Shown here one piece after another: positions 8,556 through 48,801 of a stretch of 64,000 nt of DNA; position 1 is the stretch's first letter; each line of letters begins with the position of its first letter. The DNA is taken from NCBI RefSeq assembly GCF_012720115.1, contig NZ_VNWN01000004.1, positions 124,001 through 188,000 of the forward strand, given 5' to 3'. The position numbers and the translations under genes are program-made. The stretch comes from Sneathiella chinensis (GTDB lineage: Bacteria; Pseudomonadota; Alphaproteobacteria; Sneathiellales; Sneathiellaceae). The notes beneath the pieces are model-generated. The model had not been told where the DNA came from and did not search any database. It was given only the letters and a program-made list of their open reading frames with translations.

Positions 8556-8714
8556 TGGAAACAGTCCTGACGTTGGGGGAGGGGATGAGGCAATAGCAGG
8601 AGGGACCGCGCCTGACGGGTCAGGGCGATAGGAAACAGGGTGGCAGAGACACTGCCGGTCTTGTGGACTGCGTGTTGGCAAGTCATCCATGATCCTCCGT
8701 CATGTGGTGTTATT

Positions 8715-8880
8715 GTCGGGGATGGCAGGTCTCCTGGCTTGCAAATGGCATCTGTGCCGGCCTTCCCGAAAATCTTCAGTGGCGAGTGGCAAAGACTAGT
8801 TGCTTACAGTTGCGGGGACAGCTGCGGAATTGATCAAGGATCGCACCGCATTCCCTTTTTAATCCCGAAATTCGGGAACC
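8715..8880 (-). promoter_or_regulatory. Cobalamin riboswitch (B12 element) upstream of cobW
   Basis: Read on the minus strand, this leader contains the conserved blocks in order: GGGAA followed by GCGGTGCGA, then CCGCAGCTGTCCCCGCAACTG, then GCCACTG, GGGAAGGC, and the B12 box AGCCAGGAGACCTGCC near 8722-8738. Such elements bind adenosylcobalamin and lower expression of the downstream operon, here cobW-cobN-cobO-cobQ. The expression platform between 8714 and the cobW start was not resolved by eye; sequestration of the GGAGG near 8693 is a possibility. Confidence 0.93.
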
Positions 8881-8994
8881 ATCGGTGACGGACGCTACGG
8901 ATGTTGGAGGATTCTGTCAATTCAATAAGTGACAACAGGGGGTCTTTTGCCTATTTTCCCAAGTTCCGTATTTTTCCTGTTCAGGAGGACAGTC

Positions 8995-47592: not shown

Positions 47593-47643
47593 CCTCCTGA
47601 AACCAAAAAGACCCCGGTGGCTAATCCGGGGTCTTTCAGGAGG
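47593..47643. terminator. Two-tier inverted repeat terminator between upp and the Cys-rich ORF
   Basis: The inner stem AAAGACCCCGG (47607-47617) / CCGGGGTCTTT (47626-47636) is flanked by an outer pair CCTCCTGAAA (47593-47602) / TTTCAGGAGG (47634-47643). On the minus strand the inner stem is followed by a five-T run, on the plus strand by only three. It therefore fits termination of a minus-strand RNA best and upp second. The outer arms carry Shine-Dalgarno and anti-Shine-Dalgarno-like sequence. Confidence 0.85.
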
Positions 47644-47672
47644 GAGACTTAATCAAACCGAATGTTTTCTGC

Positions 47673-47798
47673 CTAGCATCCGGTGCAGTTACAGGGAAAG
47701 CAGGACCGTGGTTCAGACATTCGCGCCTGCCGCCGTTTCCGGACTGCGTCGTAAAAGCCCGGCAACAAAGTCAGCAAACTGTATCTTATCCGGATCAT
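47673..47798 (-). CDS. Small ORF with Cys-rich C-terminus (CxxCxCxxC)
   Basis: A 41-residue ORF that is easily missed. ATG 47798 has GGAGGG 4-5 bp upstream. The N-terminal part is hydrophobic and basic (IRIRYSLLTLLPGF, then VRKRRQAR); the last 9 residues are CFPCNCTGC, directly followed by TAG. A second in-frame ATG at codon 27 would give a 15-residue peptide. It lies downstream of hemF on the same strand (151 bp away), and the terminator beyond it has its better T-run on this strand. The role is unknown: a metal-binding peptide or a Cys/metal-responsive leader are possibilities. Confidence 0.5.
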   Translation of the reverse strand: MIRIRYSLLTLLPGFYDAVRKRRQARMSEPRSCFPCNCTGC

Positions 47799-47949
47799 GA
47801 TCCCTCCGAACTGCGATTAATTCCTGTTCGACAACAGTATGATGCTGCAGCGCCGAAGCCAACAAAAACCATTGTGCGCTGCATCACAGAACGGGGCGAA
47901 TACAAATTCAATCAGGGTTTACGTAAGGTGAGAGGCCCCTTTTCCGGGT

Positions 47950-48801
47950 TCAGGGCCACTTCACCTCTGGTGGCAGGGACATGAGAATGGCTTCGGTGTT
48001 GCCCCCGGTTTTCAGGCCGAAGGTTGTGCCCCGGTCATACAGAAGGTTGAACTCCACATACCGGCCCCGGCGGACAAGCTGATGTTCCCGCTGCTCCGGG
48101 GTCCATTCCCGGTTCATGTGTCGCCGGACAATCTGGGGGTAAATGTCCCGGAAGGCGCGGCCTACATCCTGTGTGAAGGCGAAATCCGCTTCCCAGTCCG
48201 TGTTTAGCTTGTCGTAGAAAATGCCGCCAACACCCCGCGGTTCATTGCGGTGGGGCAGGAAGAAATAGTCATCGCACCATTTCTTGAAGTCCGGGTAATA
48301 ATTCGGGTCATGGGCATCACATGCCTTTTTCAGGGCGCCGTGAAAGTCAGCGGTGTCCTGATCGTTTGGAGACATGGGGGTCAGGTCGGCCCCGCCGCCA
48401 AACCACGATTGTCCGGTGACGATATGGCGGGTGTTCATGTGAACGGCCGGCACAAGCGGAGACCGCATATGGGCGACCAGTGAAATGCCGCTGGCCCAGA
48501 ACTGTCCCGAGGCTTCGGTGCCGGGAATGCTTTTGCGAAATTCCTCTGAGAACTCCCCGTGAACGGTGGAGATATTGACGCCTACCTTCTCGAAAACCCG
48601 GCCTTTCATGACGGACATCTCGCCGCCACCGCCGCCCGGCCTGTCCCATGTGGTCACTTCGAACTGACCCGGGGGAAGGTCGCTGTGCATGCCGGTCAGT
48701 TCCTGCTCCAGTGTCTCGAAGCTGGTGCGGATCTGGTCTCGAAGGGTGCGGAACCAGAGGGCAGCCTGTTCCTTGCGCTGTTCGGTCAGTTCAGTTGTCA
48801 T
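47950..48801 (-). CDS. hemF: Oxygen-dependent coproporphyrinogen III oxidase
   Basis: 283 residues from ATG 48801. HemF decarboxylates two propionates of coproporphyrinogen III with O2 in haem synthesis. The signatures are [87 protein letters not shown], and VKWP at the C-terminus. Each is present and length is normal. The frame extends far upstream (to 49008) but that part overlaps trmL and is not coding. It starts 4 bp after the trmL stop. Confidence 0.97.

Follow-up and report, generated by a model that had tools for sequence, protein, structure and literature searches.

The 41-residue open reading frame (ORF) directly downstream of hemF in Sneathiella chinensis is, as judged from its evolutionary conservation, a real gene that encodes a new and hitherto unannotated micropeptide. 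With it, Sneathiella gains a genus-wide family of unannotated micropeptides whose thiol tail is conserved. We see an about even chance that the single-gene unit works as a dual-function RNA, serving both as the mRNA of the micropeptide and as a regulatory RNA under a CRP/FNR-type regulator.

The micropeptide gene and its conservation in Sneathiella

The window, that is, the whole stretch of 64,000 nucleotides of S. chinensis DNA analysed here (genome G000), carries the peptide gene on the minus strand. The features of the locus are as follows, where unit-1 denotes an additional unit of sister genomes described below.

47950 to 48801, minus strand: hemF, the constant upstream neighbour (PF01218, E 7.4e-97)
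47873 to 47888, minus strand: CRP/FNR-type dyad TGTGATGCAGCGCACA (GTGAY-N6-[GT]CACA) upstream of the peptide
47857 to 47862, minus strand: -35-like TTGGCT, 17-nt spacing
47834 to 47839, minus strand: -10-like TACTGT, a TANNNT at a fixed distance from the dyad
47802 to 47807, minus strand: Shine-Dalgarno (SD) sequence GGAGGG, three bases 5' of the ATG
47673 to 47798, minus strand: ORF of the 41-aa micropeptide, with a conserved MxRxRY start, a variable helix and a C-terminal CxxCxC(xxC)
47739 to 47762, minus strand: hairpin CCGGGC-TTTTACGACGCA-GTCCGG within the ORF, 15/15 nt common to the unit-1 RNA of G016
47638 to 47647, minus strand: C/U-rich, SD-complementary TCTCCCTCCT, located past the stop codon and ahead of the terminator; type-C unit-1 RNAs have the homologous tail TTCCCTCC
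47607 to 47636, minus strand: intrinsic terminator AAAGACCCCGG-ATTAGCCA-CCGGGGTCTTT with a T tract to 47605, homologous to the unit-1 terminators of G016, G004, G006 and G011

The first-pass annotation of this DNA had described 41 codons starting with an ATG at 47798 behind GGAGGG, located downstream of hemF and ending in CFPCNCTGC (CxxCxCxxC) immediately before the stop, all of which we could confirm; the peptide reads MIRIRYSLLTLLPGFYDAVRKRRQARMSEPRSCFPCNCTGC (41 aa, start ATG, stop TAG). Because chance ORFs of such a size are common (within 8 kb, 100 ORFs of 30 aa or more were listed), the ORF alone is unremarkable, and its conservation therefore decides. We found hemF in all 24 genomes of the genus, and in 21 of them the next conserved ORF, just 3' of hemF, encodes a homologous peptide of 37-41 residues with the pattern M[VI]R[FYI]RY...PCxxCxC. 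In the remaining three genomes (G002, G008 and G016), the hemF contig stops after 227-466 nt. The peptide of G016 was found on a separate contig (L002), which extends the family to 22/24 genomes, and the promoter dyad is still visible just past hemF in G002 and G008. The match to the G008 hemF (L042) is interrupted by a single TGA, which may reflect a sequencing error or a pseudogene. An SD-like purine-rich stretch precedes the ATG in the 22 family members, and the gene is present in a single copy in G000, where the second match (E 0.52) is noise.

The search among relatives, proposed earlier as a check of the micropeptide idea, supported it, as the homologues in the 22 Sneathiella genomes differ by coding-type substitutions. 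Pooled over all pairs of the 22 members, pN/pS was 0.28 for codons 1-11, 0.81 for the middle part and 0.19 for KPCHGCxC, for which 15 close pairs gave 0.09; silent sites are near saturation in many distant pairs, and the close-pair values therefore matter most. These ratios indicate that purifying selection acts on codons 1-11 and the Cys motif and not on the middle; the gene is thus protein-coding, with constraint at both ends. Such protein-level selection on the ORF is also what a dual-function sRNA should display. No sequence in the 22-member alignment deviates at M1, R3, R5, Y6 or the first Cys. By our count by eye, the full CxxCxC is present in 15/22 members, each of the other 7 is without one of the three conserved Cys, and all keep at least two motif Cys. 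Thus, the first Cys of the pattern noted in the window (22/22) and, for the larger part, CxxCxC recur in relatives, but the fourth, terminal Cys is private to the window peptide, occurring in no other member by the same count.

Judged by the searches outside the genus, the peptide family looks confined to Sneathiella. A peptide search of 40 relatives returned weak, consistent full-length matches within the same genus, and a profile search of 385 class genomes recovered the five sampled genus members (E below 1e-14), with nothing better than E 0.002 beyond the genus, where the match has an internal stop. The hemF loci of other genera (n=26) contained no Cys-tailed small ORF within the 535-900 nt read downstream. 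Of the 22 database stretches with the KPCHGCxC-type DNA pattern, 11 come from Sneathiella or the matching alphaproteobacterial MAG, and the M.R.RY start is absent from all 11 others. We found no relative of the peptide in Pfam, NCBIfam or PDB, the top scores being E 0.039 for NCBIfam and E 0.11 for Pfam (each in 1/22 members) and E 1.1 for PDB, and rejected membership in a known protein family for want of a credible match.

Promoter, transcript tail and the second unit of sister genomes

Comparison of the upstream regions indicates that the peptide gene has its own conserved promoter of CRP/FNR type. The dyad GTGA[CT]...CACA together with a TANNNT -10 was found by script in 21/21 loci with a readable upstream region. 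Fifteen loci had a dyad-to--10 distance of exactly 33 nt and six one of exactly 21 nt, by a script that permitted 20-22 and 32-34 nt only and with which a free alignment of the upstream regions agrees. All 15 promoters of the 33-nt type have TTGG or TTTA at the 17-nt -35 position. The 21-nt type has no -35 match, which would place its dyad near -41.5, where class II activators classically bind. The exact TGTGAYNNNGCGCACA occurs only once in G000. This genome encodes a CRP homologue (L205), whose residues 24-210 align to Escherichia coli CRP (E 3.3e-20) and whose recognition helix reads RETVAR versus RETVGR in the E. coli protein (RETVxR). With a dyad at a fixed distance from the -10 and a CRP homologue in the genome, as expected of a CRP-dependent promoter, we infer that the peptide gene is under CRP control. 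We saw no wider CRP regulon in G000, because TGTGA-N6-TCACA, with one palindromic site, is no commoner than the reversed-pattern control, and a general CRP regulon sharing the site was therefore rejected.

The terminator begins 36 nt past the stop codon in the window and 24-92 nt past it in 20/22 loci by script, those of G014 and G015 being missed by the script and seen by eye. In the window, the terminator was missed by a consensus scan and picked up by our own script; it is bidirectional and common to the peptide gene and the convergent upp. The minus strand has the longer T tract (TCTTTTTGG, compared with TCTTTCAGG on the plus strand), in agreement with the earlier reading that it is the better terminator on the strand of the ORF. 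The locus thereby has its own promoter and intrinsic terminator, as a dual-function sRNA should, both recognisable in its sequence. With the terminator left out, the transcript folds only slightly better than shuffled sequences (z -1.57). In the one-unit genomes represented by loci L032, L033, L037, L038, L040, L041, L044 and L046, a conserved 3'UTR stretch between stop and terminator ends in (A)AATACAGA(C/T), which suggests RNA-level constraint in those genomes.

Ten Sneathiella genomes have an extra unit (unit-1), with no shared ORF, between hemF and the peptide gene. The hemF-to-peptide distance in these genomes is about 390-490 nt (466 nt on the contig in G016), and unit-1 lies in these first 390-490 nt past hemF (loci L034, L039, L043, L045, L048, L049, L051, L052, L053 and L054). 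Its promoter has the dyad and TTGG at the -35 position in all ten, with a -10-like TA at 32-33 nt in eight (all except G005 and G023). The dyad of unit-1 is TGTGA-N6-TCACA in 6/10 genomes and TGTGA-N6-GCACA in 4/10, sequences that mark the dyad of the peptide gene, too, as CRP-type. Unit-1 ends in its own terminator, beyond which the peptide gene follows in 9/10 genomes, the G016 peptide being on another contig. The cores of nine of the ten (G014 was left out) folded better than dinucleotide shuffles, though only slightly in G004, with z values of -4.4 (G018), -4.1 (G007), -6.3 (G009), -6.3 (G005), -1.0 (G004), -2.8 (G011), -3.6 (G006), -3.3 (G016) and -3.2 (G023). The common fold plan combines a long, interrupted helix and an inner hairpin with an internal loop on the 5' side that is rich in C/U (CCCUCC or CCCCUCCCC). 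In 8/10 unit-1 sequences we found C/U runs, 7 nt or longer and containing CTCC or CCTC, with a mean unpaired probability of 0.23-1.0, and between the two closest sequences 5/38 pairs are changed on both sides and none is broken. On these predicted folds, unit-1 is a structured RNA gene with C/U-rich SD-complementary loops. Rfam had no family match for the ten unit-1 loci, only sub-threshold chance-level scores; the window locus likewise gave only sub-threshold chance-level matches and none at gathering level, and a known RNA family was rejected for it. A two-sequence covariance model of unit-1 (R1) missed the window and most of the other unit-1 RNAs; as it mainly recovers its own two members, it was set aside as too narrow.

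The 3' end of the window transcript resembles unit-1. Its 3'UTR with the terminator matches the 3' end of the G016 unit-1 at 84% over 72 nt (E 1.6e-12), and the tail matches G004 at 88% over 51 nt, G011 at 83% over 41 nt and G006 at 81% over 73 nt. Against 200 shuffles, the four type-C genomes gave z values of 22.8, 16.9, 19.5 and 14.4 for the tail with the terminator and of 7.9, 6.1, 4.2 and 7.7 for the 36-nt part without it. Type-B and type-D unit-1 reached at most 4.0 with the terminator and, in 6/6 cases, at most 2.8 without it, which points to little or no homology once the terminator is omitted. The promoter part of the window resembles 4/10 unit-1 genes (z 5.5-6.9). The hairpin within the ORF, the loop of which has a mean unpaired probability of 0.87, finds a match of clear significance in only 1/10 unit-1 RNAs; the type-C relatives of the G016 unit-1 share the loop (T/A)ACGACGC. 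Given the 3' homology, the peptide ORF of the window would therefore be on a transcript with the tail of the small RNA.

A conceivable alternative, to which we give somewhat less than an even chance, is that the gene produces only the peptide from a monocistronic micropeptide mRNA, and that the 3' likeness stems from shared ancestry of the terminator region, with no RNA function in trans. Selection is plainly on the protein. The C/U-rich motif before the terminator was found in 19/20 cases versus 7.8 expected from mononucleotide shuffles, but its enrichment in peptide-gene terminators (11/18) over other terminators of the fetched loci (11/28) is not significant (p 0.23), as this explanation would have it. 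The 3'UTR also pairs no better with its own SD (mean -10.8 kcal/mol) than swapped partners do (-11.1 kcal/mol), and we rejected intramolecular SD/anti-SD pairing for this lack of specificity. However, the homology extends past the terminator to the stop codon over 36 nt in the four type-C genomes (z 4.2 to 7.9), and ten genomes keep a unit with a related promoter that specifies a structured RNA without a shared ORF, both of which speak against a gene for a peptide alone.

If the single-gene unit is a dual-function RNA, its own CRP/FNR-type promoter would drive a transcript of about 225 nt, which would be translated into the 41-aa micropeptide. The tail of this transcript, consisting of the C/U-rich SD-complementary stretch and the terminator homologous to the small RNA of sister species, would be the RNA arm and probably acts by base pairing at the ribosome-binding sites of its target mRNAs. 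Its targets would depend on CUCCCUCC and not on the start codon. At a later stage, a tandem duplication may have given rise to an upstream copy that lost the ORF and became the structured anti-SD sRNA, and to a downstream copy that kept the peptide. In the hemF tree (GTR+F+G4, four outgroups), the window genome is placed outside all other Sneathiella (UFBoot 92), the ten two-unit genomes form one clade (UFBoot 86) and the other one-unit genomes another (UFBoot 72); these supports are moderate. Moreover, no simple deletion converts the order promoter-RNA-terminator-promoter-ORF-terminator into promoter-ORF-RNA tail, whereas the two-unit form results if the window form is duplicated in tandem and the first copy then loses the ORF. 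Because of the hemF tree and this gene-order argument, we take the window form, with caution, as ancestral. That the window has an ancestral CRP-controlled dual-function RNA, whose peptide and anti-SD sRNA jobs were split by tandem duplication in the sister clade, is a tentative proposal.

Possible roles of the peptide

The peptide combines a basic start, a short amphipathic helix and a thiol-rich C-terminus, and the probable role of its Cys motif is to bind either a partner protein or a soft metal. Structure prediction for the G022 member, taken in place of the window peptide, gave a helix at residues 3-24 (pLDDT about 72), and the hydrophobic moments of the peptide helix are high, as would fit a helix that lies on the membrane surface or binds a partner while the thiol tail stays free. 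Since the Cys motif and the N-terminus are the most conserved parts, a thiol role, either metal or redox, is plausible. A narrower version, in which the micropeptide handles soft metals or heme, with a helix-anchored CxxCxC (plus His) that binds copper, iron or heme in connection with hemF, seems to us rather doubtful. The conservation of the motif, the helix with its hydrophobic moment and the constant hemF neighbour (21/24) fit such a role, but a strict three-Cys metal site is hard to reconcile with the 7/22 members that lack one Cys. Furthermore, in the long-gap genomes hemF is followed by a terminator of its own, the region upstream of the peptide is without a recognised metal-type operator, and the protein family and structure databases provided no relative. 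A thiol or metal role is compatible with a dual-function RNA, of which it would be the peptide arm.

It is very improbable that the peptide is the precursor of a modified peptide (RiPP) of the methanobactin kind. The conserved N-terminus and Cys-rich C-terminus resemble a leader and a core, and the core SCFPCNC of the window resembles the methanobactin core. However, no modification gene is adjacent, the Cys spacing is variable, and MNIO enzymes (PF05114) are encoded in 8/24 genomes of the genus and absent from G000, whereas the peptide is present in 22/24; a methanobactin/MNIO-type precursor was rejected on this distribution. In G011 (C1:1877899-1877943, L052/L056), the peptide profile has a weak match at chance level (E 0.26) about 650 nt from the MNIO gene of that genome, which is probably a coincidence.

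Least probable of all is the earlier suggestion of a Cys- or metal-sensing leader peptide, which the short ORF, the terminal Cys codons and the downstream hairpin might recall, because the terminator 36 nt past the ORF and the convergent upp on the opposite strand leave no downstream gene to control. In addition, upp was not found near hemF in 11/24 genomes, whereas the peptide stays where the flanks are readable. On this gene order the leader was rejected, unless the unit acts by read-through antisense to upp. In the copper-responsive CruR (DUF2946) of Bordetella, the upstream ORF is the first in an operon and stalling controls the downstream gene (PMC9426467). CruR shares with the Sneathiella peptide a small ORF with a CXXC-type motif, but the Sneathiella ORF has 41 aa, no DUF2946 match and, at the window locus, no regulated downstream gene on the same transcript.

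Comparison with known small RNAs

Alphaproteobacteria have sRNAs with C/U-rich anti-SD loops as well as loci that combine a small protein and an sRNA, such as CcaF1/CcsR. Unit-1 resembles the former by its unpaired C/U-rich loops in a structured RNA, and the Sneathiella locus resembles CcaF1/CcsR in that a small protein gene is joined to an RNA. Unlike CcaF1/CcsR, the Sneathiella peptide is not a DUF1127 protein by Pfam, and neither unit-1 nor the window locus matches an Rfam family. In the open-access literature searched, we found nothing on small proteins of Sneathiella, only unrelated work on Sneathiella and sRNA, nothing on dual-function RNA in alphaproteobacteria together with gene duplication or subfunctionalization, and only plant and animal work on hemF and Cys-rich small ORFs.

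Among the closest designs is VcdRP of Vibrio cholerae, which has a CRP site 5' of the -35, a 306-nt transcript with a 29-aa ORF, a C-rich pairing stretch 3' of the ORF near the RNA end, a Rho-independent terminator and repression of vcdRP by CRP (PMC8672173). The Sneathiella locus likewise has the CRP site upstream of the -35 and a C/U-rich stretch between stop and terminator, with a transcript of about 225 nt instead of 306 and an ORF of 41 aa instead of 29. Differences from VcdRP are the Cys tail of the Sneathiella peptide, for which we claim no sequence relation, the site positions, which would suggest activation rather than repression, and the separation of RNA and ORF into adjacent units in ten sister genomes. 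SgrS/SgrT of enterobacteria is summarised in the same source as having the small ORF upstream and the base-pairing part distal (PMC8672173). It parallels the Sneathiella order of ORF first and pairing part distal, and in both systems RNA and ORF are conserved to different degrees. Some species lost the ORF of SgrS/SgrT and kept the RNA, whereas one Sneathiella clade kept both on separate transcripts.

If the Sneathiella unit is indeed a dual-function RNA, the CRP-controlled design known from gammaproteobacteria would reach an alphaproteobacterium. Related species would then have the same peptide and RNA functions either fused or split in two adjacent units, a natural experiment on the evolution of dual-function RNAs in which their origin and resolution would be directly testable. 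Elsewhere in the window, at 8707-8898 on the minus strand, we observed a cobalamin riboswitch (RF00174, 120 bits).
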